Source: Actinoplanes derwentensis
GTDB lineage: Bacteria > Actinomycetota > Actinomycetes > Mycobacteriales > Micromonosporaceae
NCBI RefSeq assembly: GCF_900104725.1
Contig: NZ_LT629758.1
Coordinates: forward strand, 5,532,501 to 5,596,500
Length of the DNA stretch: 64,000 bases
Direction of reading: 5' to 3'
The notes beneath the pieces are model-generated. The model ran no database searches and was not told where the DNA came from. It saw only the letters and a list, made by a program, of their open reading frames with translations. Each line of letters starts with the position of its first letter. Within the stretch, counting starts at the first letter, position 1. The translations under genes and the position numbers were made by a program. Shown one piece after another: positions 21,537 to 62,742 of the stretch.

Positions 21537-21559
21537 ACAGTAGTGCGTGGGACTGACAG
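21537..21559 (-). promoter_or_regulatory. PafBC-type DNA-damage promoter of uvrC
   Basis: On the minus strand: CTGTCAGTC, 8 bases, TACTGT. This fits the known actinobacterial RecA-independent damage promoter TTGTCRGTG-N8-TANNNT, except for the first base and one near the end of the first element. Seven bases separate the -10 from GTG 21529. Confidence 0.75.
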
Positions 21560-21617
21560 AATTGCCCGGCCGGAGACCCGGTGCCGCCGCCACGGCCCGG
21601 GTCTTCGGCCCTGGCGC

Positions 21618-22133
21618 CTAAGCGGTGACGATGTTGTCGCCGTCCACCGAGACCGTGGTCTCGGCCAGCGGCGACTTCGCCGGCCCGGAGACCACCGAAC
21701 CGTCCTCGACGGAGAACAGGCTGTTGTGGCACTTGCAGATGATCGAGCTGTCCTTGATCTCGGTCACCTTGCAGCCCTGATGGGTGCAGACATTGCTGAA
21801 AGCCTTGAAGGTGCCCTCGGCCGGCTGGGTGACGACCAGTTCGTCGAGGATCACACCGCCGCCCACGTCCACCTTGGAGGCGGCCACCAGCACGGTGCCG
21901 GTGCTGCCGCCGCCGGTCGAGCCGCCCTCGGCGCCCTCACTGCCGGCCGGAGCCGGTTCGGCGGCGAAGTCGGAACCGTTCGGGTTCGTGCCACTGGAGT
22001 CGGTGCCGCAGGCCGCGAGCGCGGCGGTCGCGCCGATCGCTCCGGCACCCATCAGGACGACACGGCGTGACGAGGCGGGACCCGGTCGGTCCTGCTGGGT
22101 CTCGGCCTCGGTCCGCTGCTGCACGTCAGTCAT
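21618..22133 (-). CDS. Tat-exported Rieske [2Fe-2S] lipoprotein
   Basis: A 171-aa protein. The N-terminus has a twin-arginine signal ([14 protein letters not shown]) and a lipobox-like LAAC at about residues 39-42, so it is probably folded in the cytoplasm, exported by Tat and lipid-anchored. A Gly/Ser/Pro linker follows, then a compact Rieske domain with both cluster-binding motifs, CTHQGC and CKCHNSLF. It is too small to be the membrane-anchored Rieske subunit of a bc1 complex and has no nearby partner genes, so its electron partner is unknown. It is monocistronic. The 224 bases between its start and the uvrA stop show nothing recognisable. Confidence 0.88.
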
Positions 22134-22357
22134 CAGTTGTCCTCCACTACCTGTTTTCTACCGCCAGAAAGTCACGCGGAGTCGCCCCGGGATACGGATC
22201 AGATGCCGTGATCAGTTCAACGGGGCAAGCGAGATTTTCCCGCTTCCTCCACGTTCGCCCGGCAGGTCTGCCTGCTGAGACAAACACAACCGCGCCCGGC
22301 AGACCCTAGGAGACCAACCTGACGCGGTTGCTGAGAGTTGTCTAAGAAATTCCTAAA

Positions 22358-25309
22358 TCAGACGGCCGCGGCTTTCGCCCGAGAGCGGGTGGCCCGCTTC
22401 TGCGGGGTGGACCCGTTGGCCTTCGCCGCGCGCGCGGCGGCGTCCTTCGAACCCTTACCCTCGCCGGTCAGGCCCAGCGTGTGCCGCAGGAACTGCCCGG
22501 TGTGACTCTCCGGCACCTCGGCCAACTCCTCGGGCGTGCCCGTGGCCAGCACCAGACCACCCTTGCTGCCGCCCTCCGGACCCATGTCGATCAGCCAGTC
22601 AGCGGTCTTGATCACGTCCAGGTTGTGCTCGATCGTGATCACCGTGTTGCCCTTGTCGACCAGGCCGTCGAGCACCAGCAGCAGTTTGCGGATGTCCTCG
22701 AAGTGCAGGCCGGTGGTCGGCTCGTCGAGCACGTAGACAGTCCGCCCGGTGGAGCGTTTCTGCAGCTCGGAGGCGAGCTTGACACGCTGGGCCTCACCAC
22801 CGGACAGAGTGGTGGCGGGCTGACCCAGCCGCACGTAACCCAGACCCACCTCGACCAGGGTGCGCAGGTGCCGGTGAATGGCGGGCAGAGCCGAGAAGAA
22901 CTCCGCGGCCTCCTCGATCGGCATGTTCAGGATCTCGGAGATCGTCTTGCCCTTGTACCGCACCTCCAGGGTCTCCCGGTTGTACCGGGCGCCCTTGCAC
23001 ACCTCACACGGCACGTACACGTCCGGCAGGAAATTCATCTCGATCTTGATGGTGCCGTCGCCGGAACAGTTCTCGCAGCGCCCGCCCTTGACGTTGAACG
23101 AGAAGCGACCGGGCCCGTACCCCCGCACCTTGGCCTCGCTCGTCTCGGCGAACAACTTCCGGACATGATCGAAGACACCGGTGTAGGTGGCCGGGTTCGA
23201 CCGCGGGGTCCGCCCGATCGGCGACTGATCGACACCGACGACCTTGTCCACGTGCTCCAAGCCGGTGATCTTGGTGTGCCGGCCGGGAACCTGCCGGGCA
23301 CCGTTGATCTGATTCGCCATCACCGTGTGCAGGATGTCGTTGACCAGCGTCGACTTACCCGAACCGGAGACCCCGGTGACCGCGATGAACTGACCCAGCG
23401 GGAACGGCACGGTCAGGTTGCGCAGATTGTGCTCACGCGCACCGTGCACCACCACCTCACGGCCGTCAGCCCGCGAACGCCGGGTGGCCGGCACCGGAAT
23501 CGACCGGCGCCCCGACAGATAGGCCCCGGTCGGCGACTTCTCACTTGCCAGCAACCCCTCAACGGTGCCGCTGTGGACGATCTCACCGCCGTGCTCCCCG
23601 GCACCCGGGCCGATGTCGACGATCCAGTCGGCGGTCCGGATGGTGTCCTCGTCGTGCTCCACCACGATCAGCGTGTTACCCAGGTCACGCAACCGCACCA
23701 GGGTCTCGATCAGCCGATGGTTGTCCCGCTGGTGCAGACCGATCGACGGCTCGTCCAGCACATACAACACCCCGACCAGCCCGGAACCGATCTGGGTGGC
23801 GAGCCGGATCCGCTGCGCCTCGCCACCGGACAGCGTGCCGGCACCCCGATCCAGCGACAGGTAGTCCAAACCGACGTCGAGCAGGAACCGGAGCCGGGCG
23901 TTGATCTCCTTGAGCACCCGCTCGGCGATCATCTTCTGCCGGTCGTCCAACTCGATACCAGCCAGCAGCTCGGCACAGTCACCGACGGACAGGTTGCAGA
24001 CCTCGGCGATGTTCTTCCCCGCCACGGTCACCGCCAGCACCTCGGGCTTCAGCCGGGCACCACCACACACCGAACAGGGGACGTCACGCATGTACCCCTC
24101 ATACTTGTCGCGCGACCAGTCACTCTCGGTGTCGTTGTGCCGCCGCTCGATCCACTGCACCACACCCTCGAACCCGGTGTAGTACGAGCGCTCCCGGCCG
24201 AACTTGTTCCTATACCGCACGTGGACCTGATCATCGGCCCCGTACATCACGATCTTCTGCACCCGGGACGGCAGCGCCCGCCACGGCGTGTCCAGGGAGA
24301 ACTTCTCCGCCTCGGCGAGAGCCTCCAGAAGCCGGGTGAAGTACTCCTGGGTGGTGCCACCGGCCCACGGCTGGATCGCGCCCTGACCGAGGCCCTTCTC
24401 CTCGTCCGGGATGATCAGCTCCGGGTCGACCTCCTTCTTCGTGCCGAGGCCGGAACACTCGGGACACGCACCGTACGGCGCGTTGAAGGAGAAAACCCGC
24501 GGCTCCAGATCCTCGATCGCGAGCGGATGATCGTTCGGGCAGGCCAGATGCTCGGAGAAACGGCGCTCCCGGTCCGGGGCGTCCTCCGGCAGATCCACGA
24601 AGTCGAGCAGCAGAATGCCGCCGGCCAGCCCCAGCGCCGCCTCGACCGAATCGGTCAGACGCTGCTTGCTGGACTCCTTCACGCTGAGGCGGTCGATCAC
24701 CACCTCGATGGTGTGCTTCTCCTGCTTCTTCAACTTCGGCGGCTCGGTCAGCGGATGGACCACACCGTTGACCCGGGCCCGGGCATAACCCTTGGCCTGC
24801 AGTTCGGCGAACAGATCGACATACTCGCCCTTACGGCCACGGACCACCGGAGCCAAGACCATGAAACGAGTGCCCTCAGGCATCTCCAGAACCCGGTCGA
24901 CGATCTGCTGCGGAGTCTGCTTACTGATCCGCTCCTTGCAGACCGGGCAGTGCGGGATGCCGGTCCGGGCGAACAACAGCCGCAGGTAGTCGTAAACCTC
25001 GGTGATCGTGCCGACCGTGGAACGCGGGTTGCGGTTCGTCGACTTCTGATCGATCGAGACCGCCGGGGACAAACCCTCGATGAAGTCCACGTCCGGCTTG
25101 TCCATCTGGCCCAGGAACTGCCGCGCGTACGACGACAGCGACTCGACATAACGCCGCTGGCCCTCGGCGAAGATCGTGTCGAAGGCGAGACTGGACTTGC
25201 CCGAACCGGAGAGCCCGGTGAAGACGATCAGCGCGTCTCGGGGCAGGTCGAGGTTGACGTCACGCAGGTTGTGCTCGCGGGCGCCACGGATAGTCAGTCG
25301 GTCGGCCAC
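22358..25309 (-). CDS. uvrA: UvrABC excinuclease subunit A
   Basis: A 983-aa damage-sensing ATPase. Two ABC modules each have Walker A ([14 protein letters not shown] near residue 32 and [14 protein letters not shown] near residue 640) and signature motifs ([13 protein letters not shown] and [13 protein letters not shown]). Zinc-finger cysteine sets are visible in [16 protein letters not shown] and [16 protein letters not shown]. The C-terminal tail ([16 protein letters not shown]) is basic and Ala-rich. GTG 25309 has GAGAGG six bases before and matches the family start ([15 protein letters not shown]). A PafBC-type promoter lies 38 bases upstream. Confidence 0.97.
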
Positions 25310-25347
25310 TGCCAGCCTCTCCGTACAAGTGTATGAGTCGAGCAGCC

Positions 25348-25370
25348 ACTCTAGCCCCGGGGTATGACAT
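25348..25370 (-). promoter_or_regulatory. PafBC-type DNA-damage promoter of uvrA
   Basis: On the minus strand: ATGTCATAC, 8 bases, TAGAGT. The TGTC core and TANNNT are at the exact N8 spacing of the known RecA-independent damage promoter. The predicted transcript start is about 30 bases before GTG 25309, leaving room for its ribosome-binding site. Confidence 0.7.
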
Positions 25371-25388
25371 TTTCCGGCACCCGGTCGA

Positions 25389-27170
25389 TCATCCGTTCGA
25401 GGGAACCGGCCAGAGCTCCACGCCGCCCACGCTCTGCGGCTCACCCAGGGCCTCCACCAGAACAGACCGCAGCGACGCCTCATTCCGGCTACCCGGAATC
25501 AGCACGACCACACCCGCCCGCCAGAAATCCAGATCCGCCAGGAACCGCTCCCGGTCCACCGCCGGAACATAGCCGTACTCCCGCACACTCCACAGCAGGT
25601 CGGACGTGTAACGGTGCGGAGCCTGCCAGGAACCGGTGTCGTCGGCCGGCGGATCAGCCGGGCCCATGAAATAGCCACGCGGCGTCGGATAGTCCAGATT
25701 GTTGAGAGTCGCCCAGCGCTGCCCGGTGCGCCCCGACGTCACATCCGGCAACGGCACCGTGACCAGCGTCTTCCCATCCGCGACATAGGAACGCCAGGTC
25801 CCCTCGGTCAGGAACGGCGGCATCGGATCACCCTGCACCACCGGCAACGGCTTGGGGATCAACGGCACCAGCGCCAGCACCATGCCGATCCAGAACAGGC
25901 GCCGGCGTTTCGGCGCGAACGAACCGGCCCGATCCACGGCGAACGCCAGCAACACCCCGGCGACCGCGGCCGGCACCATCGCGAACCGGGTCACGCTGAC
26001 CAGGTCGATCACCGGAACGTGACTGATCAGCCCGAACGGCAGCGGGATTCCGGTGTCGTACCCGAAGATCCGCAGTTGCGGGCCGAACGACATCACCAGC
26101 AACACCAGGCCGGCGATCGCAGTCGACCGCAACGCCACCGACCTCCACAACATCACGATCGCCACGATGACCATCACCAGGCCGACCGGGCCGAAGAACG
26201 TGTTGTCCTCGGTCGCACTCACACTCAAATTCCTGGTCAGCGCGGCGTTTCCAGCGAGCGCCTGCCGGGAGAACCAGCCCAGCGACGCCACATCGGTGAC
26301 ATAGGCGGTCGGTTCGAACGGCTGCCCGTGATAGTTACCCGGGGCGAAGAACTGGTACCACAGCGGGTACGCCAGCAGCACCCCCGAGGTGAGCGCGGCC
26401 ACCCCGATCCCGGCACTGAAATGCTTCCAGACCAGACGCGCCTCACTCCAGGCCATCGCCGCGTACCCGGCCGCCATCAGGCCGAGCGTCAACGCGGTGA
26501 AGAGCAGCGCCTCCTCGTTGATGAACACCTGCAACGTGATGAGCAGACCCAGGATCACGCCGCCGCGCCGGACCCGGCCCGGTTCCCGCAGCCGCAGCAC
26601 CTGCCAGACGATGAACGGCAGCACATAGTTGCTGACGAAGTTCACATGCCCGTTCGCGTGCGAGATCATCGCCGGCGCGAAACCGCACCAGGCGCCACCG
26701 ATCCACGCCGCCGGGCGGCTGTCCACCAGATGCCGGGACAGCACCCAGTACCAGGCGAAAGCCGTACCGCCCAGACCCCCGGTCACCAACAGCGCCACCG
26801 TGACGCCGCCGCCCAGGAAATGAGTGACCGGAGCCAGCGGGATCGCCAAGGCCAGGATCGACGTGTTCGCCATCATGTTGACACCGACCGGCACGTTGAA
26901 CCGGTCACTGAAGAACGGCGCCGCACCGTCGAACACCACCCGCTCGGCGTGCGCCAGCATGAACAGGAAGATGCCGTGATCGTCGTCGTTGCCGGCGAGC
27001 ACCCGCCCGTTCGGGTCGATCCAGAGCTGAATCGTCACCAGCGTCGCGAACAGAGCGAACCCCAGCGCGACCCACGTATCGACCCGCTGCCACCGGGCCG
27101 GACGCCCGGCCTTCTCCGCGACTTCCGCCGCCTTCTCGGTCACCTCGTCAGCCGCACGCACCGGCCGCAT
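25389..27170 (-). CDS. Polytopic membrane protein, GT-C-type glycosyltransferase-like
   Basis: A 593-aa protein with a short cytoplasmic N-terminus (coiled, [17 protein letters not shown]), about ten to twelve transmembrane segments, and a soluble C-terminal domain of about 170 aa (from about residue 425). The first extracytoplasmic loop carries an acidic cluster, GNDDDHGIF, where GT-C glycosyltransferases place catalytic Asp residues, and a periplasmic segment contains NEEALLF. It probably transfers a sugar from a polyprenyl-phosphate donor, but neither donor nor acceptor can be read. It is monocistronic and preceded by a 561-base repeat-rich gap. Confidence 0.6.
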
Positions 27171-27283
27171 TCTGCCAGAACGCCCCTACACCCCCACACC
27201 GAGCCGGTTACCCCCACCCCACCCACTCACCTCCCTCCCCGACTCACCTCCCTCAACGACGGCTAGCCGTCGCTCAGTCATGA

Positions 27284-27412
27284 AATTCGGCTAGCCGTAG
27301 CTCAGCCATGTTCTGGGGCGCCATAACAGGTCTGAACTACGGCCGGGTTGACTGAGCCGTAGCTCAGCAACGTCATGGACCCGCTATGACATTGCTCAGC
27401 TACGGCTAGCCG
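27284..27412. repeat. MITE-like intergenic repeat, copy B
   Basis: Second copy of the element at 419-548: left end 27284-27316 (31 of 33 bases the same), right end 27395-27412 (18 of 18). The interior differs. It contains GCCATAACAGG, additional CCGTAGCTCAGC units and CTATGACATTGCTCAG. A further partial unit (GGCTAGCCGTCGCTCAG) lies just outside at 27261-27277. No open frame is present. Confidence 0.6.
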
Positions 27413-27731
27413 AAAAGAACGGGCCGGAAGAGCTGGGCCGGGGAAGAACTGGGGGCAGGGAGAAACTACGTCCGGCCGGTCGAAGAGCCCGCCAAACAAG
27501 GGCCGGACGAACGAAAGGCCGGAGAACACGGGGCTGGACGAGCAAGAGCAGGAAGAACGACGGGCCGGACGAACAACTGGCCAGCGCGCCGATGAACGGC
27601 CCGGCGGTCGCGGGGCGGTGGGGGCTGGTCAGCCGACGCGCGAGGTGGCGGCAGACGCCCGAGGTGGAGGCAGGCCAGCCGACGCGCGAGGTGTTTGCCG
27701 GTGTGCCGGCCAGCCGTACCGGAGGAGGGGT
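27413..27731. repeat. Purine-rich degenerate repeats upstream of the rsgA stop
   Basis: This non-coding stretch is built of imperfect GGGCCGGACGAAC/GGCCGGAGAAC units (27420-27580). It also has two copies of CAGCCGACGCGCGAGGTG at 27630-27647 and 27676-27693, 46 bases apart. No gene is recognisable. It separates rsgA from the membrane protein gene. Confidence 0.45.
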
Positions 27732-28781
27732 TCAGAGGCGACGGCTGCTCGGGGGCGCGGGGGAACGTCGTTGGCGGGCCAGCCTTGCGGAGCGGCGGCC
27801 GCTCTCCACCTCGACCTCGCGGCGCAGTTTGCGCCAGCTCTCCAGGCGGCGTGGCGGCAGCGAGCCGTCGGCCAGGGCGGTCTGGACGGCGCAGCCGGGT
27901 TCGGACTCGTGGCCGCAGTCGTCGAAACGGCACCGCGCCGCCAGGCCGGTGACGTCGGCGAAGGCCCGGTCCAAGCCGCCGCCGGTGTCGAGAAGGCCGA
28001 CGCCACGGATGCCGGGGGTGTCGATGACGGCCCCGCCGCCGGGGAGCGGCACCAGATTGCGGTAGGCGGTGGTGTGCCGCCCTTTGCCGTCCGCGTCGCG
28101 GATCTCCTGGACGGGCATGACACTCGTGCCGGCCAGTGCGTTGACCAGGGTCGACTTGCCGGCGCCGGAACGGCCGAGGAGGGCGACGGTCCGGCCCGGC
28201 CCGATCCGGGCGCGCAGTTCGTTGAGGCCCCGGCCCTGTTGGACGCTGACCGGCAGGACCGGCACGCCGGGTGCGAGTTCGCCGAGTTGGCGGGCGATCG
28301 CCGCCGGGTCGCGGCTGGTGTCGCTCTTGGTGAGGACCAGGAGCGGGTCGGCGCCGGATTCCCAGGCCAGGGCGAGCAGGCGTTCGACGCGGGCGTCGTC
28401 GGGTTCCGGGTGGATCGGCTCGACGACGGCGACGACGTCCATGTTGGCGGCGAGGACCTGACCTGAGGAGTCCTTGTCGGCGGTTCGCCGGATGAGTGTG
28501 GTGTGGCGGGGCAGCACGAGTTCCAGGGTGGTACGCCGGTCCGGCCAGTGTCGCAGCACCACCCAGTCGCCGGCGCTGGGCAGGGCGGACGGGTCGCGGG
28601 CGGCTTCGACCATCACGGAACCGCCGAGGGTGGCCCGGGTCACGCCGGACTCGGTGAGGACGGTGCAGATGCCGCGGTCGGCGCGGAGGACCCGGCCGGG
28701 AACGGAGTCGGGCCGGTCGAAACGGCGGAACGAGGAAGCGAAACGGTCGTCCCAGCCCAGCTGGGACAGGGGGTACGACAT
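27732..28781 (-). CDS. rsgA: Ribosome small-subunit-dependent GTPase A
   Basis: A 349-aa circularly permuted GTPase that checks 30S subunit maturation. The N-terminal OB-fold part is residues 1-110. Then come the permuted GTPase motifs: G4 LTKSD, G1 GRSGAGKSTLVNAL and G3 DTPGI in the order 4-1-3. The C-terminal zinc site is CRFDDCGHESEPGC. The extreme C-terminus is Arg-rich (RRSARLARQRRSPAP). ATG 28781 follows AAAGGG. It is divergent from the metallo-hydrolase gene at 28973, with a 191-base shared upstream region. Confidence 0.93.
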   Translation of the reverse strand: MSYPLSQLGWDDRFASSFRRFDRPDSVPGRVLRADRGICTVLTESGVTRATLGGSVMVEAARDPSALPSAGDWVVLRHWPDRRTTLELVLPRHTTLIRRTADKDSSGQVLAANMDVVAVVEPIHPEPDDARVERLLALAWESGADPLLVLTKSDTSRDPAAIARQLGELAPGVPVLPVSVQQGRGLNELRARIGPGRTVALLGRSGAGKSTLVNALAGTSVMPVQEIRDADGKGRHTTAYRNLVPLPGGGAVIDTPGIRGVGLLDTGGGLDRAFADVTGLAARCRFDDCGHESEPGCAVQTALADGSLPPRRLESWRKLRREVEVESGRRSARLARQRRSPAPPSSRRL

Positions 28782-30410: not shown

Positions 30411-30500
30411 GTTCGCCGCCCGGAAGACCGGCCACATTCCCGTGGTCACCACGCGAGGCGTGCTCGGGTCACCATCGGCCCGCGCATGCCGGACGAGACG

Positions 30501-38861: not shown

Positions 38862-38946
38862 TCCACGAGCTTAAAGTCGGCGAACGACATGACAAAATGC
38901 CGGCCTCGGCGGCCGGCGGTGACTTCCGTGCGGATTTCCCCGACGA

Positions 38947-52048: not shown

Positions 52049-54166
52049 TTATTTCACGCCTGCTGCGTCCATGCCTCGTAGTTCCTTCTTCAGTTCGTGG
52101 ACCTCGTCGCGGATTCGGGCCGCCAGCTCGAACTGCAGTTCGCGGGCGGCGGCCAGCATCTGGTCGCTGAGGTCCTGGATGAGCTGGGCCAGCTCGGCCC
52201 GGGCCATGCCGGCGCGGGCCGGGGTGGCCGACGCCTTGCCGCGGGAACGGGTTTCCGGGACCGGGGCCTTGCCGCGGGACATCTGGCGGCCGGCGCCGCC
52301 GACCATCGAGCCGGCGACGGCCTCGTCGGTGTCCTCCGCCTCGCGGTAGATGTCGTCGAGGATGTCGTGGATCTTCTTGCGCAGGGCCTGCGGCTGGATG
52401 CCGTTGGCCTCGTTGTGGGCGATCTGTTTGGCCCGGCGGCGGTCGGTCTCGTCGATGGCGTTCCGCATCGAAGGCGTGATCTTGTCGGCATACATGTGGA
52501 CTTCGCCGGAGACGTTTCGCGCGGCACGGCCGATGGTCTGGATCAGGGAACGGCCGCTGCGCAGGAAGCCCTCCTTGTCGGCGTCCAGGATCGCGACCAG
52601 TGACACCTCGGGCAGGTCGAGGCCCTCGCGGAGCAGGTTGATGCCGACGAGCACGTCGTAGTCGCCCTTGCGCAGTTCCTTGAGCAGCTCGACGCGGCGC
52701 AGCGTGTCCACCTCGGAGTGCAGGTAGCGGACGCGGATGCCGTTCTCCAGCAGGTAGTCGGTGAGGTCCTCGGACATCTTCTTGGTGAGCGTGGTGACCA
52801 GGACCCGCTCGTCGCGCTCGGTGCGCAGTCTGATCTCGTGCATCAGGTCGTCGATCTGGCCCTTGGTGGGTTTGACGACCACCTGCGGGTCGACCAGGCC
52901 GGTGGGGCGGATGACCTGCTCGACGAACTCGCCCTGCGCCTGCTCCATCTCCCAGTTGCCGGGAGTGGCGGAGAGGAACACCATCTGGCCGACGCGGTCC
53001 AGGAACTCGTCGAAGCGCAACGGCCGGTTGTCGGCGGCGCTGGGCAGCCGGAACCCGTGCTCGATCAGGATCCGTTTCCGGGAGGCGTCGCCCTCGTACA
53101 TCCCGCCGATCTGCGGGATCGTCACGTGCGACTCGTCGATGACGGTGATGAAGTCGTCGGGGAAGTAGTCGAGCAGCGTGTACGCCGGCTCGCCGAAGGT
53201 CCGCCCGTCCATGTGCATCGAGTAGTTCTCGATGCCGTTGCAGAAGCCGACCTGCCGCATCATCTCGATGTCATAGGCCGTCCGCATCCGCAGTCGCTGG
53301 GCTTCCAGCAGTTTGCCCTGGCGCTCGAACTCGGCGAGCCGCTCGGCCAGCTCGGCCTCGATGTCGTTGATCGCCCGTTCCATCCGCTCCGGGCCGGCAC
53401 CGTAGTGCGTGGCCGGGAAGATGATCAGCTCGTCGACCTCGCGGACCACCTCGCCGGTGAGCGGGTGCAGGTAGTAGAGCTTCTCCACCTCGTCGCCGAA
53501 CAGCTCGATCCGGATGGCGAGCTCTTCGTAAGCCGGGATGATCTCCAGAGTGTCGCCGCGCACCCGGAACGTGCCCCGCTGGAAGGACATGTCGTTGCGC
53601 GCGTACTGGATGTCGACCAGGCGGCGCAGCAGCCTGTCCCGGTTGATGTCCTCGCCGACCTTGACCCGGATGGCCCGGTCCACATACTCCTGTGGGGTGC
53701 CGAGGCCGTAGATGGCGCTGACGGTGGCGACCACGATCGTGTCGCGGCGGGTCAGCAGGGACCTGGTGGCCGAGTGCCGGAGCCGCTCGACCTCCTCGTT
53801 GACCGACGAGTCCTTCTCGATATAGGTGTCGGTCTGGGCGATGTAGGCCTCTGGCTGGTAATAGTCGTAGTAGCTGACGAAATATTCGACGGCGTTGTTG
53901 GGCAGCAGCTCGCGGAACTCCTTGGCGAGCTGGGCACAGAGCGTCTTGTTGGGAGCCATCACCAGCGCGGGCCGTTGCAGCCGCTCGATGAGCCAGGCCG
54001 TGGTCGCGCTCTTGCCGGTGCCGGTGGCGCCGAGCAGGACGGTGTTGCGGTCGCCGTGCCGGACCCGCCGCTCCAGCTCGTCGATCGCGGCAGGCTGGTC
54101 ACCTGCGGGTTTGTAGTCACTGATGACCTCGAACCGGCCGTCGAGTCGTGGGATGTCGAGCGCCAT
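52049..54166 (-). CDS. uvrB: UvrABC excinuclease subunit B
   Basis: A 705-aa DNA helicase-like protein that verifies damage and presents it to UvrC. Walker A is [13 protein letters not shown]. The lesion-probing beta-hairpin is [21 protein letters not shown]. Walker B is TVIDESHV. C-terminal helicase motifs ([22 protein letters not shown]) and the final UVR motif (helix [19 protein letters not shown]) are present. ATG 54166 starts only six bases after the -10 of a PafBC-type promoter, so the mRNA is probably leaderless. Confidence 0.97.
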
Positions 54167-54172
54167 GCCACC

Positions 54173-54195
54173 ACCGTACGTCGGGGGTATGACAA
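54173..54195 (-). promoter_or_regulatory. PafBC-type DNA-damage promoter of uvrB
   Basis: On the minus strand: TTGTCATAC, 8 bases, TACGGT. It matches TTGTCR and TANNNT at the exact N8 spacing. Only six bases lie between the -10 and ATG 54166, which implies a transcript starting at the A of ATG. Confidence 0.78.
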
Positions 54196-54521: not shown

Positions 54522-55706
54522 CTACGACCCCGGCTGCCACCTGGTGGCGATCGCCCAGTCGTCGGCCGCGCGCGCCTCCGCCTCGAACCATGGTTCCTTC
54601 GCTTCCGCGTACCCCAGCCGGTCCTGATGCTCTGAAGCCAGCCGGGCCTTGGCCGCAGCGTAGGCGTCCCGCGCCTCGGGCACCGCCCGCAGGTGGTCGC
54701 GCATCAACAGCGCGAACCGCCACCCCGGCGAGCCGGTGACCCGAACGTGCAGGTTGACGCGGTATCCGGGGTCGGCGCAGCCGTGCAGCCGTTTCGGCCA
54801 GGTGCCGCCGGGGATGCCGTGCGCGTGGTCCGACCAGGTCCCGGGCCGTTGCGGGAAACCGGCTGCGCCGAGGGGTTCGGCCAGCGCGTCGGCCTCGTCG
54901 AGGGTCCGCACGCCGATCATCAGGTCGATGATGTCCTTGGCGGGCAGGCCGGGCACCGCGGTCGAGCCGATGTGGTGGACGCCGGCGCGGTCGCCGATGC
55001 CGTGCCGGATCCGGGCGGTCAGCCGGTCCGCCGCGCGCGGCCACTCCGGGTCGGGTTGCACGATCCGCAACTCCCGGCTTTTCGTGGCGGATCGCCCGGA
55101 CCGCAGATTGCTCTCGAACTCCACCAGCCGGTCCCGCCACAGCTCGTCCACCCGGGCGTGCAGGCCGGCCAGGTCGTCCTCGTTCGCCAGGAGCACGTCA
55201 CCGGCGGCGCGGCGCTGCTCGTCGCCGGTCTGCGCGTCGATCCGGGCGGTCGCCTCGGCCGGGGACAGCCCACGGGTGCGGGTGAGACGTTCCAGACGCA
55301 CCGCGCGGTCCGCCATCACCACGATCACCAGCTGGTACGTGGGGGCAAGCCCTGTCTCGACCAGCAGCGGGACGTCGTTGACCACGACGGCGTCCGGGGC
55401 GGCCGCCGCGGTCAGCGCGACCGTCCGGGCCCGTACCCGCGGGTGAATGATCTTCTCCAGGCGGCGGCGTGCCGCCGTGTCGCCGAAGACCTCGCGGCCC
55501 AGCGCCGGCCGGTCCAGCGCACCCTCCGGGGTCAGCACACCGGAACCGAACGCCGTGACGATCTCGGCCAGCCCGTCCGTGCCCGGCTCGACCACCTCGC
55601 GGGCCAGCAGATCAGCGTCGATGATCACCGCGCCGCGGTCGGCGAGGCGCCGCGCGACCGCGCTCTTACCCGCACCGATTCCGCCCGTGAGCCCGACTCT
55701 CAACAT
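54522..55706 (-). CDS. coaE: Dephospho-CoA kinase fused to a GrpB/UPF0157 domain
   Basis: A 394-aa protein. Residues 1-200 are dephospho-CoA kinase, the last step of coenzyme A synthesis: P-loop GLTGGIGAGKSAVARRL, DADLLAREVVEPG, and IIHPRVRARTVAL. Residues 210-394 form a GrpB domain of the nucleotidyltransferase-like superfamily (HIGSTAVPGLPAKDIIDLMIGV, YRVNLHVRVTGS). The fusion is shared with mycobacterial CoaE; the second domain may aid folding or regulate the kinase. It lies between rpsA and uvrB, as in M. tuberculosis. Confidence 0.93.
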   Translation of the reverse strand: MLRVGLTGGIGAGKSAVARRLADRGAVIIDADLLAREVVEPGTDGLAEIVTAFGSGVLTPEGALDRPALGREVFGDTAARRRLEKIIHPRVRARTVALTAAAAPDAVVVNDVPLLVETGLAPTYQLVIVVMADRAVRLERLTRTRGLSPAEATARIDAQTGDEQRRAAGDVLLANEDDLAGLHARVDELWRDRLVEFESNLRSGRSATKSRELRIVQPDPEWPRAADRLTARIRHGIGDRAGVHHIGSTAVPGLPAKDIIDLMIGVRTLDEADALAEPLGAAGFPQRPGTWSDHAHGIPGGTWPKRLHGCADPGYRVNLHVRVTGSPGWRFALLMRDHLRAVPEARDAYAAAKARLASEHQDRLGYAEAKEPWFEAEARAADDWAIATRWQPGS

Positions 55707-55769
55707 GCGATCAGTATCCCGGTGCCGGAGAGGTGCCGAAGCCGGGGAGGTGCCGTGTGCGGGATGGGC

Positions 55770-55805
55770 GAAAGGCCGCCCCGACAGGTGTCGGGGCGGC
55801 CTTTC
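55770..55805 (-). terminator. rpsA terminator
   Basis: A perfect 17-bp palindrome (55770-55786 / 55789-55805) 23 bases after the rpsA stop on the minus strand and 64 bases before the coaE start. Confidence 0.75.
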
Positions 55806-55827
55806 AGTGGTACTGGTTACCGCTGGA

Positions 55828-57336
55828 TCAGCTCTTGCCGCCGGCCAGCTTCTCGCGCAGAGCAGCGAGAGCCTCGTCGGTGGCCAGGGTGCCCACCGGC
55901 TCCTCGGCGGAGCGCGTCGACGTCGACGAGCTCGTGGAGGTGGAGGTCGACGAGGACGAGGTCACGCCACCGGCCGGAACCGGGTTGAGCGCGGCCTCGG
56001 CGTCGGCCTCGCGGGACGCCTGCACCTGCTTGGTGTGGGCCTCCCAGCGCTCGCGGGCGTCGGCGTACTGCTTCTCCCACGTCTCGCGCTGCTTGTCGAA
56101 GCCGTCGAGCCACTCACCCGTCTCGGGGTCGAAGCCCTCCGGGTAGATGTAGTTGCCCTCGTTGTCGTACGTGGCGGCCATGCCGTACAGCGTCGGGTCG
56201 AAGTGCTCCTCGCCCTCGACGAAGTTCTCGTTGGCCTGCTTGAGCGACAGCGAGATCCGGCGACGCTCGAGGTCGATGTCGATGACCTTGACGAGCACGT
56301 CCGAACCGACCTGGACGACCTGCTCGGGCAGCTCGACGTGACGCTCGGCCAGCTCGGAGATGTGCACCAGGCCCTCGATGCCGTCGTCGACGCGGACGAA
56401 CGCGCCGAACGGAACGAGCTTGGTGACCTTGCCCGGCACGATCTGGTTGATCGCGTGGGTCCGGGCGAACTGACGCCACGGGTCTTCCTGGGTCGCCTTC
56501 AGCGACAGCGAGACACGCTCGCGGTCCAGGTCGACGTCGAGAACCTCGACCTCGACCTCCTGGCCGACCTCGACGACCTCGGAGGGGTGGTCGATGTGCT
56601 TCCAGGAGAGCTCGGAGACGTGCACGAGGCCGTCAACGCCACCCAGGTCAACGAAGGCACCGAAGTTGACGATGGAGGACACGACGCCCTTGCGGACCTG
56701 GCCCTTCTGCAGCTTGTTGAGGAACTCGGTACGAACCTCGGACTGCGTCTGCTCGAGCCACGCGCGACGGGACAGGACCACGTTGTTGCGGTTCTTGTCC
56801 AGCTCGATGATCTTGGCCTCGAGCTCACGGCCGACGTACGGCTGGAGGTCGCGGACACGACGCATCTCGACGAGCGAAGCCGGGAGGAAGCCACGGAGGC
56901 CGATGTCGAGGATGAGGCCACCCTTGACAACCTCGATGACGGAGCCGCGAACGACGCCGTCGTCCTCCTTGATCTTCTCGATGGTGCCCCACGCGCGCTC
57001 GTACTGCGCACGCTTCTTCGAGAGGATCAGGCGACCTTCCTTGTCCTCCTTGGTGAGGACGAGGGCTTCGATGTGGTCACCGACCGACACCACTTCCGCG
57101 GGGTCCACGTCATGCTTGATCGACAACTCGCGCGAGGGGATGACACCCTCGGTCTTGTAGCCGATGTCGAGCAGGACCTCGTCCCGATCGACCTTGACGA
57201 CGGTGCCTTCGACAATGTCGCCGTCGTTGAAGTACTTGATGGTCTCGTCGATGGCTGCGAGGAATGCTTCCTCAGAACCGAGATCGTCGATCGTGACCCT
57301 GTTGGCGCTCGAGGTGGCCTCGATGCTGCTCGTCAT
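55828..57336 (-). CDS. rpsA: 30S ribosomal protein S1
   Basis: A 502-aa RNA-binding protein with four S1 OB-fold repeats at about 37-105, 125-190, 207-275 and 290-360; repeats 3 and 4 keep the full pattern (VVSSIVNFGAFVDLG, GLVHVSELSW; LVPFGAFVRVDDG, GLVHISELAE). The C-terminal 140 residues are variable, with an acidic/aromatic part (YDNEGNYIYPEGFD) and a Ser/Thr run (TSSSSTSTSTSSSTST). Four repeats are usual for actinobacteria. The protein helps recruit mRNA to the 30S subunit. Confidence 0.96.
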   Translation of the reverse strand: MTSSIEATSSANRVTIDDLGSEEAFLAAIDETIKYFNDGDIVEGTVVKVDRDEVLLDIGYKTEGVIPSRELSIKHDVDPAEVVSVGDHIEALVLTKEDKEGRLILSKKRAQYERAWGTIEKIKEDDGVVRGSVIEVVKGGLILDIGLRGFLPASLVEMRRVRDLQPYVGRELEAKIIELDKNRNNVVLSRRAWLEQTQSEVRTEFLNKLQKGQVRKGVVSSIVNFGAFVDLGGVDGLVHVSELSWKHIDHPSEVVEVGQEVEVEVLDVDLDRERVSLSLKATQEDPWRQFARTHAINQIVPGKVTKLVPFGAFVRVDDGIEGLVHISELAERHVELPEQVVQVGSDVLVKVIDIDLERRRISLSLKQANENFVEGEEHFDPTLYGMAATYDNEGNYIYPEGFDPETGEWLDGFDKQRETWEKQYADARERWEAHTKQVQASREADAEAALNPVPAGGVTSSSSTSTSTSSSTSTRSAEEPVGTLATDEALAALREKLAGGKS

Positions 57337-57658
57337 GTGGACAGTTGCTCCGAACGGATGGGATTAGTGGTGTCGCGCGCACTCCACGGAACTGCCGCCG
57401 AAAACGACACGAGCGAGCGAGACGACCACCCGAAGGGCAGTCGGATCAAAGCAGTCGATCATGCCGGGTCCGGCGACCACGGAACCTGCTCCCTGCCGAG
57501 GTACACGTTCCGCGAGCGCATCGACTAGCTTACCGTGCGCATTACCACAGGTTGCAAGCCCTCCTGAGGACTGCGGCACATTGCCGGTCGAGAACCCACC
57601 ATCATGCGCTTTATGGGCCGAATCCGGACGGTCGCCACGCCTGCCGTACCGTTGCCGG
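57337..57658. other. Divergent promoter region between rpsA and the methyltransferase
   Basis: These 322 bases include the rpsA leader and promoter on the minus strand. An ATG-initiated frame from 57461 extends the methyltransferase but has no family similarity. Nothing else is recognised. Confidence 0.35.
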
Positions 57659-58471
57659 GTGACCTCGCCCCACTCGTCCGATACCCCCGTGCCGCGCGTC
57701 ACCGAGACCGAGGCACGCCGCGCCAACCGGACCTGGTGGGACCGGGACGCCGACGACTACCAGGACGAACACGGCGCCTTCCTCGGCGACGTCGACTTCG
57801 TCTGGTGCCCCGAACGGCTCCGCGAGGCCGACGCGCGACTGCTCGGGCCCGTACCAGGAAAAAAGATCCTGGAACTCGGTGCCGGGGCCGCCGCCGCCAG
57901 CCGCTGGCTCCGGAGTGAGGGAGCCCACCCGGTCGCCCTCGACCTGTCCGAAGGCATGCTGCGGCACGCCGCCGACGCCGCCGGCCGCAGCGGAGTGCCG
58001 GTGCCGCTGGTCCAGGCCGACGCGATGGCCCTGCCCTTCGCCACCGGCAGCTTCGACATCGTGTGCACCGCCTTCGGTGCCATCCCGTTCGTGGCCGACT
58101 CCGGCGCGGCCATGCGTGAGGTCGCCCGTGTGCTGCGCCCCGGCGGCAGCTGGGTCTTCTCCGTCACACATCCCATGCGGTGGATCTTCTTCGACGAGCC
58201 GGACGAGAGCGGGCTGATCGCCCGGAATTCCTACTTCGACCGTACGCCGTACGTGGAACGCGACGACGACGGCACCGTCACCTACCTGGAACAACACCGG
58301 ACCGTCGGCGACCGGGTCCGCGAACTGGTCGGAGCCGGCTTCCTCCTCCGCGACCTGATCGAACCGGAATGGCCGGACGATCACGAACAACTCTGGGGCC
58401 AGTGGAGCCCGCTGCGGGGCCGACTGTTCCCCGGCACCGCCATCTTCGTCTGCGACCTACCCGAACGCTGA
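57659..58471 (+). CDS. Class I SAM-dependent methyltransferase
   Basis: A protein of about 270 aa. It begins with an extension containing RANRTWWDRDADDYQDEHGAF. The SAM-binding motif I is ILELGAGAAAASRWL near residue 70. Motif II VALDLSEGMLRHA and motif post-II DAMALPFATGSFDIVCTAFG follow, then VLRPGGSWVFSVTHPMRWIF. It matches the Methyltransf_11 (UbiE/Cfa-like) group; the substrate is unknown. GTG 57659 is chosen, but GTG 57689 is possible; neither has a clear ribosome-binding site. Confidence 0.82.
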   Translation: MTSPHSSDTPVPRVTETEARRANRTWWDRDADDYQDEHGAFLGDVDFVWCPERLREADARLLGPVPGKKILELGAGAAAASRWLRSEGAHPVALDLSEGMLRHAADAAGRSGVPVPLVQADAMALPFATGSFDIVCTAFGAIPFVADSGAAMREVARVLRPGGSWVFSVTHPMRWIFFDEPDESGLIARNSYFDRTPYVERDDDGTVTYLEQHRTVGDRVRELVGAGFLLRDLIEPEWPDDHEQLWGQWSPLRGRLFPGTAIFVCDLPER

Positions 58472-58558
58472 CAGCGCCGCCCGGTCCCGCCGGCCGGCGG
58501 CACTGCGACAGGGCTTCGGTACGGGGACAGCTCGGTGAGGTGGCGACCGTGCCAGCAC

Positions 58559-59665
58559 CTATACCCGGGAGGGCGCCGGCCGGTCGGCGTCGAGGATGGC
58601 CGCGAGGCGAGTCAGCTCGCCGGGGATCGCCCGGTAGTAGACCCAGGTTCCGCGACGGGATCCGTGCACGAGGCCGGCCTCCCGCAGGATCCGCAGGTGA
58701 TGGGAGATCGTCGGGCCGGTGAGCGGGAAGGCCTCACTGAGATCACAGACACAGATCTCCCCGTCGGTGGCCGAGGCGATCATCGACAGCAGACGCAGCC
58801 GAACCGGATCACCGAGCGCTTTGAACGCCCCGGCCAGATCCCCGGCGCGCTCGGCGTCCAGCGGCCCGTCGGTGATCCCGGCCACCGCCTGATCCTGCGC
58901 CCCGAGCGCCAGCCCGTCCACCGCCTGGCGAAGCGACCCCAGCGCGATCCCGGTGACGTCCTGCCGCCCGGGAACCTGCCCGAACCCCACCACACCCGGC
59001 CGCCCGGAACCCGGCCCACCACCGGCGACAGCCGACCGCCCCGAGAACGCTCCGCCGCTGACGACGGCCGACCGCCCAGAGGACGCTCCCCCACCGGCAA
59101 CAGCGGGCCGCCCCGCTGTTGCAGCGGGCCGGCCCAGAACCGGTCCGCCGCCGACAGCAACCTGCCGCCCCGAGATCTGCCCGGCCCCAACCGCGACCGA
59201 GCGGCCCGAGACCTGCCCGGCACCAGCCACGGTAGGGCGAGAGTGGCCCTGCCCGGCGCCGTAGACGGCAGGTCCCGGCGATCCCTGCCCGGCACCGACC
59301 GTGGCCTGGCTGAAGAGAGCACGCGACCGACCGGGAACGGCGGAATGGTTCACAGCGGCCGGACCGCTCACGGCCGCCGGGCTACTGAGGACGGCGGGGC
59401 GACTCCCCGACGGGTGATCAGCGGCGGAGACCGGGGCGGCCGGCCGGCTCACCGGGGCGACCGCTGGCCGGGCCGCCGTCGGTGAGTCCGGGGCGCTTCC
59501 GGGGGGCGGGCTTGAGGCACCACCCACTGTCACGGAAACGGGCTTGCCTGAGGCGGGAAGGACACCGGGTGTGACGGGATCGGCTGCGGGTCCGGTCGCG
59601 GGCATCGACCGCTGACCGGTGACGGACTCCGCGCGAACCTCAATCGACGTCGATTGAATCGGCAT
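58559..59665 (-). CDS. ArsR-family regulator with a long repetitive N-terminal extension
   Basis: The last 110 residues are a typical ArsR/SmtB regulator: AFKALGDPVRLRLLSMIAS, then the metal-binding ICVCDLSEAF and the recognition helix TGPTISHHLRILREAGLV, ending GTWVYYRAIPGEL. The CVC motif suggests arsenite or antimonite sensing. Upstream in the same frame are about 250 residues of Gly/Ala/Val/Pro-rich 13-residue-like repeats (GAGQVSGRSVAV). If translation starts at ATG 59665 the protein is 368 aa, far longer than the family's usual 110-130. The real start may be internal. No arsenic-resistance gene is adjacent. Confidence 0.65.
   Translation of the reverse strand: MPIQSTSIEVRAESVTGQRSMPATGPAADPVTPGVLPASGKPVSVTVGGASSPPPGSAPDSPTAARPAVAPVSRPAAPVSAADHPSGSRPAVLSSPAAVSGPAAVNHSAVPGRSRALFSQATVGAGQGSPGPAVYGAGQGHSRPTVAGAGQVSGRSVAVGAGQISGRQVAVGGGPVLGRPAATAGRPAVAGGGASSGRSAVVSGGAFSGRSAVAGGGPGSGRPGVVGFGQVPGRQDVTGIALGSLRQAVDGLALGAQDQAVAGITDGPLDAERAGDLAGAFKALGDPVRLRLLSMIASATDGEICVCDLSEAFPLTGPTISHHLRILREAGLVHGSRRGTWVYYRAIPGELTRLAAILDADRPAPSRV
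59640..59657. promoter_or_regulatory. Perfect 18-bp palindrome, likely ArsR-type operator
   Basis: TCAATCGACGTCGATTGA is fully palindromic and has the TCAA-N10-TTGA look of ArsR/SmtB operators. It lies just inside the 5' end of the ArsR-like reading frame, consistent with autoregulation. Confidence 0.55.
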
Positions 59666-59830
59666 CGACCCAGGGTGTCAGATCAGGGTAAACATTGGCG
59701 ACGCCACCACCCGGACGGGTATCCGACAGTCCCGCGACATCACCCGGTAGAAGCACTGGAGCCCACGTTCCGGTCGGCCACCGATTACGCTCAGTGACTT
59801 CCGTTGGTTACTCGTCCGCCCCGCCGCCCG

Positions 59831-59870
59831 AGTCCGCCCGAGTCCGCCCGAGTCCGCCCGAGTCCGCCCG
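59831..59870. repeat. Four perfect 10-bp tandem repeats
   Basis: AGTCCGCCCG occurs four times in a row, preceded by a partial copy at 59821-59830. It lies in the non-coding gap between the ArsR-like gene and the polA stop. The length is likely variable by slippage. Confidence 0.85.
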
Positions 59871-59967
59871 CGACGGTCAACCCTCCGAGGCCGGTTGGAG
59901 ACGTTTCGCGGTCAGGGCCGCGAGGCGACCCGGGGTGCGACCGGCGGGCCGGACGGGCCCGGGCCGG

Positions 59968-60004
59968 ACACACCGGGCGGGCCGTCACGGGCCGCCCGGT
60001 GTGT
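59968..60004 (-). terminator. polA terminator
   Basis: A perfect 13-bp stem (59968-59980 / 59992-60004) with an 11-nt loop, ten bases after the polA stop on the minus strand. Confidence 0.65.
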
Positions 60005-60014
60005 GCGGGGTGGG

Positions 60015-62711
60015 TCAGTGGTCGGCGCCGTTCCAGTCCCGGCCGGATCCGATGGAGACCTCCAGCGGGACCGACAACGGGTAGGCGGCACCCATTTCGC
60101 GGCGGACCAGTTCCTCCAGGGCGGGCTGTTCGCCGGGGGCCACCTCGAAGACGAGTTCGTCGTGGACCTGCAGGAGCATCCGGGATTTCAGGCCGGTGTC
60201 CTTCAAGGCCTCGTCGACACGCAGCATCGCGATCTTGATGATGTCGGCGGCGGAACCCTGGATGGGGGCGTTGAGGGCCATCCGTTCGGCCATCTCGCGG
60301 CGCTGGCGGTTGTCGCTGCTCAGGTCGGGCAGGTAGCGACGGCGGCCCAGGATCGTCGCCGTGTAGCCGTCCTTGCCGGCCCGCTGGACCACGGCCTGCA
60401 GGTAGTCGCGGACGCCACCGAAGCGTTCGAAGTACTCCGTCATCAGGGTGCGCGCCTCCTCGGTGGAGATGCTCAGCTGATTGGAGAGGCCGAAGGCGCT
60501 CAACCCGTACGCCAGGCCGTAGTTCATGGCTTTGATCTTGCGGCGCTGGTCGGGGGTGACCTCGGTCAGGCCGGTGTGGAAGACCGACGACGCGGTGGCG
60601 GCGTGGAAGTCGGCGCCCGAGTTGAAGGCGGCGATCAGGGCGTCGTCACCGGACAGGTGCGCCATGATCCGCATCTCGATCTGGCTGTAGTCGGCCGTCA
60701 GCAGCCGGTCGTAGCCTGCGCCGACGATGAAGGCGCGGCGGATGCGGCGGCCCTCCTCGGTGCGGATCGGGATGTTCTGCAGGTTCGGGTCGGTGGACGA
60801 CAGCCGGCCGGTGGCGGCCACGGTCTGGTTGAACGTGGTGTGCACACGGGTGTCGTCGGAGACCGCCTTGAGCAGGCCGTCGACGGTGGACTTGAGCTTG
60901 GCGACGTCGCGGTGGCGCAGCAGGTGCGACAGCAGCGGGTCGCCGGTCTTGGCGAACAGGTCGGTCAGGGCGTCCGCGTCGGTCGTATAGCCGGACTTGA
61001 TCTTCTTGGTCTTCGGCAGGTCCCGCTCGACGAAGAGGATCTCCTGCAACTGCTTCGGGGAGCCCAGGTTGAACTCGCGGCCGACGACCTCGTGCGCGGC
61101 CACCTGAGCGGAGCGCACCTCGGTGGCGAAATGCGACTCCAGCTCCGACAGGTAGTCGATGTCGGCGGCGATCCCGCGCTGCTCCATCTCGGCGAGCACG
61201 ATCGACAGTGGCTGCTCGACGTCGGACAGGAGCCGGACCGAGTCGTCGCCGTCCTGGGACAGCTCGGCGGTGATCACCTCGGCCAGGTCCAGGGTGGCCC
61301 GGGCGCGCAGCATGACGCCCTGCTCGGCGGCGTGGTCGTCGCCGTCGCCGTCGAAGCTGAGGGCCAGCTGGCCGTTCTCCGGCTCGTCGACCTTCAGCTC
61401 GCGCTTGAGGTAACGCAGCGCCAGGTCGTCGAGGTGGTAGGCGCGCTGGTCGGGTTTCGCCAGGTAGGCGGCGAGAGCGGTGTCGGTGGTGACACCGGCG
61501 AGCTGCCAGCCGTGAGCGTGGAAGGCGAGCAGGGCCGGTTTCGCGTCGTGCACGACTTTCGGCCGGGACGGCTCGGCCAGCCAGGCGGCGACGGCGCGCT
61601 CGTCGTCCTCGTCCAGGGTCTCCGGGTCGAACCAGGCGGCCGGGCCGCCCGCGGTGGCGACGCCGACACCGGTGAGACGGCCGGTGCCGCGGCCGAAGAC
61701 GCCGGTGACGGCCAACCCGACCGGATCGGTGCCGGCGTGCTCGCGCAGCCACCCGGCGATGCCACCGGCCCGCAGGACCTGCCCGTCGATGTCGAAGCCG
61801 GACTCGGCCTCCGGCTCGACGGCGTCGAGGTACGCGTAGAGCCGCTCACGCAGCACCCGGAACTCCAGGGCGTCGAAGAGCTGGTGCACGGCCTCGCGGT
61901 CCCAGCCCTGCCAGCGCGTCTCCTCCGGCCGCACCGGCAACTCCAGGTCACGCAGGAGCCGGTTCAGCTCGTAGTTGCGCAGCACGGAGGCGAGGTGGGC
62001 TCGCAGATTCTCACCGGCCTTGCCTTTGATCTTGTCGGCGCCGGCCACGATCCCGTCGATCCCACCGAACTCGACGATCCACTTGGCGGCGGTCTTCGGG
62101 CCCACCCCGGGCACACCGATCAGGTTGTCGCTGGTCTCACCGACGAGCGCGGCCTTGTCCCGGTAGAGATGCGGCGGGACGAGCTGTTTCTCCTCGACCA
62201 GGGCCGGGGTCATCCGCCAGACCTCGGAGACACCACGGCTGGGGTAGAGGACGGTGATGTGCTCGTCGACCAGCTGCAGGGCGTCACGGTCGCCGGAGGA
62301 GATCAGCACCTCCATGCCCGCGTCACGGCCCTGGGTGGCCAGCGTGGCGAGGACGTCGTCGGCCTCGAAGCCGGCTTTCTCGACGACGGTGATGCGCAGC
62401 GCGGCGAGGATCTCCTTGATCAGGCTGACCTGACCGTGGAACTCCTTGGGGGTCTCGGCGCGACCGGCTTTGTACTCCGGGTAGATCTCGGTGCGGAAGG
62501 AGACCCGGGAGACGTCGAAGGAGACGACGATGTGCGAGGGCTTCTCGTCACGCAGCATGTTGATCAGCATCGACGTGAAGCCGAACACCGCGTTCGTATG
62601 CTGGCCGGTCGCCGTGCTGAAGTTCTCCTTGGGCAGCGCGTGGAACGCACGGTAGGCCAAGGAGTGGCCGTCGAGCAGCAGCAGGCGGGGGGTTGGGGCG
62701 TCGTCGCTCAC
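60015..62711 (-). CDS. polA: DNA polymerase I
   Basis: A protein of about 898 aa. Residues 1-300 are the 5'-3' exonuclease/flap nuclease (LLLLDGHSLAYRAFHALP, KAGFEADDVLATLA, GDRDALQLV, GVPGVGPKTAAKWI). The middle part is the inactive-type 3'-5' exonuclease remnant usual in actinobacteria. The polymerase domain has motif A DYSQIEMRIMAHLSG, motif B RRKIKAMNYGLAYGLS and motif C QVHDELVFEV. GTG 62711 is eight bases after the -10 of a PafBC-type promoter, so the message is probably leaderless; upstream in-frame residues do not fit the family. Confidence 0.96.
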   Translation of the reverse strand: MSDDAPTPRLLLLDGHSLAYRAFHALPKENFSTATGQHTNAVFGFTSMLINMLRDEKPSHIVVSFDVSRVSFRTEIYPEYKAGRAETPKEFHGQVSLIKEILAALRITVVEKAGFEADDVLATLATQGRDAGMEVLISSGDRDALQLVDEHITVLYPSRGVSEVWRMTPALVEEKQLVPPHLYRDKAALVGETSDNLIGVPGVGPKTAAKWIVEFGGIDGIVAGADKIKGKAGENLRAHLASVLRNYELNRLLRDLELPVRPEETRWQGWDREAVHQLFDALEFRVLRERLYAYLDAVEPEAESGFDIDGQVLRAGGIAGWLREHAGTDPVGLAVTGVFGRGTGRLTGVGVATAGGPAAWFDPETLDEDDERAVAAWLAEPSRPKVVHDAKPALLAFHAHGWQLAGVTTDTALAAYLAKPDQRAYHLDDLALRYLKRELKVDEPENGQLALSFDGDGDDHAAEQGVMLRARATLDLAEVITAELSQDGDDSVRLLSDVEQPLSIVLAEMEQRGIAADIDYLSELESHFATEVRSAQVAAHEVVGREFNLGSPKQLQEILFVERDLPKTKKIKSGYTTDADALTDLFAKTGDPLLSHLLRHRDVAKLKSTVDGLLKAVSDDTRVHTTFNQTVAATGRLSSTDPNLQNIPIRTEEGRRIRRAFIVGAGYDRLLTADYSQIEMRIMAHLSGDDALIAAFNSGADFHAATASSVFHTGLTEVTPDQRRKIKAMNYGLAYGLSAFGLSNQLSISTEEARTLMTEYFERFGGVRDYLQAVVQRAGKDGYTATILGRRRYLPDLSSDNRQRREMAERMALNAPIQGSAADIIKIAMLRVDEALKDTGLKSRMLLQVHDELVFEVAPGEQPALEELVRREMGAAYPLSVPLEVSIGSGRDWNGADH

Positions 62712-62719
62712 GTCCCAGG

Positions 62720-62742
62720 ACTCTAGTCGCCCGGTCCGACAA
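62720..62742 (-). promoter_or_regulatory. PafBC-type DNA-damage promoter of polA
   Basis: On the minus strand: TTGTCGGAC, 8 bases, TAGAGT. The TTGTCRG core and TANNNT are perfect at the N8 spacing. Eight bases separate the -10 from GTG 62711. Confidence 0.78.

Follow-up and report, generated by a model that had tools for sequence, protein, structure and literature searches.

Predicted PafBC-type promoters in a lineage-specific form upstream of uvrC, uvrA, uvrB and polA in an Actinoplanes-like genome

Introduction

The closest described counterpart of the elements reported here is the RecA-independent promoter of mycobacteria, known as P1 or RecA-NDp, whose consensus is tTGTCRgtg-N8-TAnnnT and which is activated by PafBC (PMC5656591, PMC11804915). 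The GTG of this consensus is printed in lower case, that is, as a weak element (PMC5656591). PafB reads the '-26' element, PafC contacts sigma domain 4, and the arginines of the WYL domains that bind single-stranded DNA (ssDNA) have been named (PMC11804915), as have those of the PafB recognition helix (PMC6789036). In M. tuberculosis the PafBC motif is found in the variants TGTCGG, TGTCAG and TGTCAC, each followed by N10-TA-N3-T (PMC8151990). Here we analyze four promoters, those of uvrC, uvrA, uvrB and polA, in a window of 64,000 nucleotides, by which we mean the whole stretch of DNA, positions 5532501-5596500 of a single 10,654,081-base contig. The host is close to Actinoplanes; its PolA shares 95% identity with the Actinoplanes couchii protein. 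We find that the four promoters are very probably of the PafBC type, predicted to depend on an activator and to belong to a larger damage regulon.

Two other systems bear on this regulon. Streptomyces has PafBC homologs, the M. smegmatis motif is reported as seemingly not conserved in S. venezuelae, and a Streptomyces response 'remains to be shown' (PMC9380542, 2022). In Deinococcus, one DUF4132 gene and one WGR gene are induced upon depletion of DdrO, and E. coli MolR is described as LexA-regulated (PMC8533742).

Results

Four repair genes on the minus strand of the window are preceded by one and the same architecture. The names that an earlier note had given to these genes hold, all four products scoring above their NCBIfam equivalog cut-offs. 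The promoter of uvrC (excinuclease ABC subunit C, 19589..21529; NF001824, 1090 bits, cut-off 451) lies at 21537..21559 and reads CTGTCAGTC-CCACGCAC-TACTGT, its -10 box ending 7 nt from the GTG start. That of uvrA (subunit A, 22358..25309; NF001503, 1579 bits, cut-off 1147), at 25348..25370, reads ATGTCATAC-CCCGGGGC-TAGAGT and ends 38 nt from the GTG start. The uvrB promoter (subunit B, 52049..54166; NF003673, 1065 bits, cut-off 743) is found at 54173..54195 as TTGTCATAC-CCCCGACG-TACGGT, 6 nt from the ATG, and the polA promoter (DNA polymerase I, 60015..62711; NF004397, 1037 bits, cut-off 720) at 62720..62742 as TTGTCGGAC-CGGGCGAC-TAGAGT, 8 nt from the GTG. The positions and strand are those that the note had reported, and in all four cases exactly 8 bases precede TANNNT. 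The core had been described as TTGTC(A/G)-like; TGTCR is indeed common to the four, the leading T is present in only two. Likewise, a location just before the start is true of uvrC, uvrB and polA, which look leaderless-like, and not of uvrA with its 38 nt. Because the -10 boxes of the former three are 6-8 nt from the start codon, their messages would be nearly leaderless.

At all four promoters a TANNNT -10 is present and a consensus -35 is absent. The hexamers at 17-nt spacing from the -10 (GCAATT in uvrC, CGGAAA in uvrA, CGAAAC in uvrB and GGAAAC in polA) are, by eye, not TTGACA-like. Positions 7-9, after TGTCR, are TAC in uvrA and uvrB, GAC in polA and GTC in uvrC, so that GTG occurs in none of the four. 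In the window,.TGTC[AG]N11TANNNT matches five times, as compared with 0-1 matches at each of 15 other spacings. The fifth match, ATGTCGTTC-N8-TAAGCT at 38868..38890 on the minus strand, has the right spacing without the AC extension and is probably due to chance.

Across the genome, the pattern suggested by the earlier note, TTGTCRN11TANNNT, shows only a modest enrichment (34 sites, as compared with 23 when the pattern is reversed). In 22 of these 34 sites position 8 is A (P 6e-11 at 15% A), which is T in the mycobacterial consensus. TGTCRNACCN7TANNNT occurs at 37 sites against one for its reversed control, the highest count among 393 genomes of the class, whereas TGTCRGTGN8TANNNT, for which base composition gives an equal chance expectation, occurs at 10 against one. 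The TTGTCRGTG consensus that had been quoted for these promoters is therefore not the main form here; the box of this Actinoplanes-like genome has drifted to TGTCRNACC. When the spacing in TGTCRNAC...TANNNT is left free from N4 to N12, N8 accounts for 43 of 64 sites and every other spacing for 1-4. Of the 21 sites with a wrong spacing, 11 loci were inspected by eye, with no family search, and revealed no repair gene; five were inside genes. At up to one mismatch, NTGTCRTACN8TANNNT gives 120 sites (24 exact) against 37 for its reverse, while a scrambled core gives 17, none of them exact, and 42 when reversed. By our own gene calls, 40 of the 43 TGTCRNAC-N8 sites are intergenic, and for 31 a gene start follows within 60 nt, in many cases at +6 or +7. 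The annotation of sites that follows is based on 67 collected sites rather than on the listing of the 37 TGTCRNACCN7TANNNT sites.

Twelve of the 43 TGTCRNAC-N8-TANNNT sites precede recognized repair genes (P ~2e-14, assuming that 1.05% of genes are repair genes); as far as these sites show, the motif is not equally common before random genes. The twelve are helY, two genes for AlkZ-like glycosylases, ligA, dinB, uvrA, uvrB, polA, a DnaQ/GIY-YIG nuclease gene, radA, recA and lexA; several of these names, radA included, are given by Pfam domains only. Another seven sites precede genes for DUF4132, WGR, SWIM or DUF7824 proteins and three precede other DNA-related genes, encoding a SNF2-type helicase, a primase-polymerase and a DUF4365 protein. 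Variant-form sites outside the 43 are found before uvrC, nfo, a recN-like gene (a label given by sequence and SMC-type Pfam matches, with no equivalog), a DAK2-recG pair, a fifth DUF4132 gene and a PD-(D/E)XK nuclease gene. A set made of excision repair plus Pol I, as first envisaged, is hence too narrow: several dozen sites also stand before recA, lexA, ligA, dinB, radA, helY, nfo, DNA glycosylases and DUF4132/WGR genes, among others. The lexA gene (TIGR00498, 252 bits; L101/L202, C1:9021183-) has its PafBC-type site in its own orientation. A site at 2327094 was considered as promoter of a second lexA-like gene and discounted, as it is inside an opposite-strand sigma-like reading frame. At recA (L030/L203, C1:8999912+) an exact GAACN4GTTC box lies 99 nt upstream of the PafBC-type site. 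As recA carries both a LexA box and a PafBC-type site, it is likely to be under two damage inputs. Among the 67 collected sites an exact LexA box is found only here and at 5705907-.

Two repeats came up in these searches. Identical TTGTCGGTG-N8-TACCGT sites with the same flanks, at C1:1585935- and 10220028+ (L004, L093), form a repeated element. The 22-mer CTTGACATTGGTATCTGAATTT was found five times as a control match (C1:4288450-, 6249316-, 7035604-, 7335923- and 9900183+) and may be part of an insertion element.

Both pafB and pafC, whose presence the earlier note had proposed to check, are encoded in the genome. PafB (L107:3148-4176) has M. smegmatis PafB as its best PDB match (3e-73) and PafC (L107:4173-5138) M. 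smegmatis PafC (4.8e-80), with an HTH_PafC score of 138 bits (cut-off 32). The two genes are in tandem and followed by tatA and tatC; helY, with its own motif site, is ~4.4 kb further, and the C-terminal part of pafA is seen ~2.3 kb upstream of the pair. NCBIfam gave no name to PafB, PafC or the DUF4132 proteins tried. Alignments show that the recognition-helix arginine pair and the WYL arginine pairs are kept (AFQRKFERDK and FRLSR in PafB, FRIDR in PafC). As nearly every genome of the class has PF19187 (PafC; 387 of 393), whether motif and pafC occur together in a genome is uninformative. A gene for another WYL regulator (5880447-; L097/L207, C1:5881057-), whose product has a partial HTH_PafC match below the cut-off, lies directly behind the near-consensus site ACGTCGTAC-N8-TAGCGT.

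The genome has eight DUF4132 genes. Five lie within ~90 nt behind motif sites; the other three gave no motif match in a looser scan. The five proteins, of ~1000-1167 aa, are encoded at C1:700000-705500, 3460300-3465700, 3694500-3699900, 7945800-7951300 and 9831700-9837200 (L188-L192), and the last (L192) heads a DUF4132-MoxR ATPase-DUF5682 run. Genes for a WGR protein, a SWIM zinc-finger protein and a DUF7824 protein have sites likewise. The DUF4132 domain was found by Pfam at full length; the first 500 residues or fewer of the five proteins gave nothing. In relatives, the exact N8 motif is upstream of 34 of 51 DUF4132 matches, these being all matches whose start lies no further than residue 18 of the query (36 upstreams from 37 strong matches, L296 counted as a match, and the remaining 15, nine of which have the motif). 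In the same 51 upstreams the motif was found at none of 13 other spacings and not at all on the opposite strand.

The architecture is conserved in relatives. Upstream of polA it is exact in 75 of 80 named Micromonosporaceae loci, four of the five misses being one base off in TGTCR and one lost. Upstream of uvrB it is found in 60 of 61, since 19 of the 80 loci gave no uvrB match within the stretch covered. The polA boxes of Micromonospora are often TGTCGGTG-like, those of Actinoplanes and Dactylosporangium mostly TGTCRTAC or TGTCRGAC. Across the class, 39 of 70 polA upstreams have an exact motif; 30 of the 70 were returned automatically (own genome included) and 40 hand-picked from 148 genomes. 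The spacing control does not demand the leading base and so counts 40 matches at N8; on that strand each of 13 other spacings has 0-1, and the opposite-strand counts are 0-2. One of the class matches (L271), at a distance of 256 nt from the gene, is perhaps not a polA promoter.

Box preference, tallied for five families, differs between them. NACC outnumbers GTG in 2/2 f1 and 3/3 f13 genomes (genomes in both searches), whereas GTG outnumbers NACC in 9/9 f19/g26 and 7/8 f2 genomes, and f18 is mixed. A genome of the mycobacterial family (G112) has 11 NACC against 7 GTG sites; another of mycobacterial type (G003), with an RpoA closest to that of M. smegmatis, has the motif at uvrB and polA. We compared the PafB recognition helix in 21 sequences from seven families, with residue numbers transferred from A. 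aurescens numbering. It reads AFQRKFERDK in f1 and has FRRM or FRRQ before FERDK in f13 and f18, while f2, f31, f29 and f17 have S, G, D, E or Q together with M. Use of NACC in a family is thus accompanied by an additional basic residue next to Arg44; f18 uses both boxes. We hypothesize that this residue may set the box preference.

The g26 genomes are taken as Streptomyces: RpoA of G050 is identical over 340 residues to a chain of 7vpd and 7x75, the latter being S. coelicolor RNA polymerase (PMC10936776), and the other members are called Streptomyces through the genus label only. Nine of these genomes have 29-70 TGTCRGTG-N8-TANNNT sites each, with controls at 0-3. In three genomes the exact canonical promoter precedes uvrB in 3/3, uvrC in the one found and uvrA in one of the two found. 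The uvrB, uvrC and uvrA promoters of the species covered, S. venezuelae not being among them, disagree with the statement in PMC9380542, and from these other species we argue that a PafBC-type response would exist in Streptomyces. Near uvrB in three Streptomyces genomes there is also a gene starting ATGGACAGC (the L373/L374 stretch, G050 7176431-; L375, G096 1949666+; L385, G152 5625673-) with nearly the promoter of uvrB, TGTCRGTG-N8-TACGGT.

Discussion

The promoters of uvrC, uvrA, uvrB and polA share with the mycobacterial P1/RecA-NDp promoter the TGTCR core, the 8 bases, TANNNT and the lack of a -35, and both forms are found before recA, uvrA and other repair genes. PafB and PafC are likewise encoded near pafA, tatA, tatC and helY. 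The two differ at positions 7-10, GTG there and mostly NACC here, and in that DUF4132 genes are members here. The proposal of PafBC-type control made in the earlier note therefore stands in so far as a single promoter type agrees in its core, its spacing and its -10, shows enrichment before repair genes and coexists with pafB and pafC; its GTG extension is lacking. Because GTG is missing at positions 7-9 (37 NACC against 10 GTG sites genome-wide), we regard the four promoters as a lineage variant that would work like the mycobacterial promoter and not as exact members. Of the M. tuberculosis variants, TGTCGG fits polA exactly and TGTCAG uvrC; TGTCAT of uvrA and uvrB is outside the three. The box near lexA of M. 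tuberculosis points the other way (PMC8151990), whereas here it is in lexA's own orientation.

By analogy with M. smegmatis, we infer how PafBC binding and damage induction may take place at these promoters. The TANNNT -10 lacks a -35, and the TGTCR box, 8 bases upstream, stands at the '-26' position that mycobacterial PafB reads. The ssDNA arising from DNA damage would bind to PafB and PafC through their WYL domains, and the pair so activated would let the housekeeping RNA polymerase start at such promoters independently of RecA and LexA. uvrA, uvrB, uvrC and polA would then share a regulon with recA, lexA, ligA, dinB, radA, helY, nfo and the DUF4132/WGR proteins, and the four genes may be induced together by damage.

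Several observations weigh against this reading. Three of the four promoters are counted as lacking the GTG of the published consensus. About half of the sites (21 of 43) precede genes with no evident DNA link, or no callable gene. An exact match is absent from 31 of the 70 polA upstreams of the class. In Streptomyces, one of the two uvrA genes found has no match even at one mismatch, and three polA genes have a TGTC box with CAGGAT as -10, so that 0/3 are exact. The genome contains nine WYL-domain matches beyond PafB and PafC, and another WYL activator could read some of the sites. Finally, both PafBC binding and damage-induced expression are predicted from sequence.

A question arises, is PafBC the protein that reads the box? 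A different regulator, either another WYL-domain activator or ClgR, put forward for mycobacterial P1 in a 2011 paper (as cited in PMC5656591), is an unlikely reader of it. The genome has 11 WYL matches in all, one of which (5880447-), with its partial HTH_PafC, is encoded directly behind a near-consensus site, and the box is unlike the mycobacterial one at positions 7-9; yet PafC is nearly universal in the class, where the architecture is widespread, the repair-gene content suits a PafBC regulon and the PafB recognition helix is conserved. PafBC is thus probably the regulator of the four promoters.

Leaderless promoters are common in actinobacteria. Still less probable is that the promoters are PafBC-type by descent and give steady rather than damage-induced expression in this lineage. 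Induction is a prediction, polA and ligA are housekeeping genes and many of the sites are leaderless-like; however, a promoter that lacks a -35 should need an activator, and recA, lexA and dinB have promoters of the same type. That these are SOS promoters under LexA we consider very improbable and reject for the four, as none has an exact GAACN4GTTC. No such box is found near uvrC, uvrB or polA even at one mismatch, and uvrA has a single one-mismatch LexA-like box, at -28; the exact box of recA, 99 nt upstream of its PafBC-type site, speaks for SOS input there, but only 2 of 67 sites have one. Chance matches to a loose pattern before leaderless genes, which the 34 against 23 sites for TTGTCRN11TANNNT might suggest, are scarcely credible given the spacing specificity, the phylogenetic conservation, the refined motif and the spacing, reversed, scrambled and opposite-strand controls.

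The DUF4132 genes add a further parallel. The DdrO regulon of Deinococcus (DRA0166, DUF4132; DR2173, WGR) and MolR of E. coli under LexA resemble the present case in that DUF4132/WGR genes are under a DNA-damage regulator (PMC8533742); the regulators and operators there are unrelated, whereas here the promoter is PafBC-type. These promoters link the DUF4132 family to DNA damage, with probable induction predicted from their sequence. Among the matches listed, no title linked DUF4132 or WGR to PafBC, or PafBC to Actinoplanes or Micromonospora in this way, most subscription journals being outside coverage. What the cited papers describe, in the parts drawn on, does not extend to the lineage-specific form of the box, to the Streptomyces result or to the link with DUF4132. 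Tentatively, and rated somewhat short of an even chance, we propose that the PafBC response is class-wide, Streptomyces included, and that its box has undergone recoding from lineage to lineage, with Mycobacterium and Streptomyces using RGTG, and Micromonosporaceae and f13 using RNACC. The recoding would have come about through extra basic residues in the PafB helix (Lys45 in f1, Arg43 in f13 and f18, as against Ser, Gly, Asp, Glu or Gln43 with Met45 in the GTG users read). The Micromonosporaceae regulon would, in the same proposal, hold DUF4132/WGR proteins as a damage effector family that no fewer than three unrelated regulators of the damage response (PafBC, DdrO and LexA) have recruited.

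The present findings would extend the mycobacterial damage response to antibiotic-producing actinomycetes, and they indicate that a search with the mycobacterial consensus can overlook sites in some lineages. The question of a Streptomyces response can now be tested directly at the uvrB, uvrC and uvrA promoters. The uncharacterized DUF4132 family, with its WGR and MoxR-DUF5682 neighbors, gains a physiological context, namely a probable induction by DNA damage.

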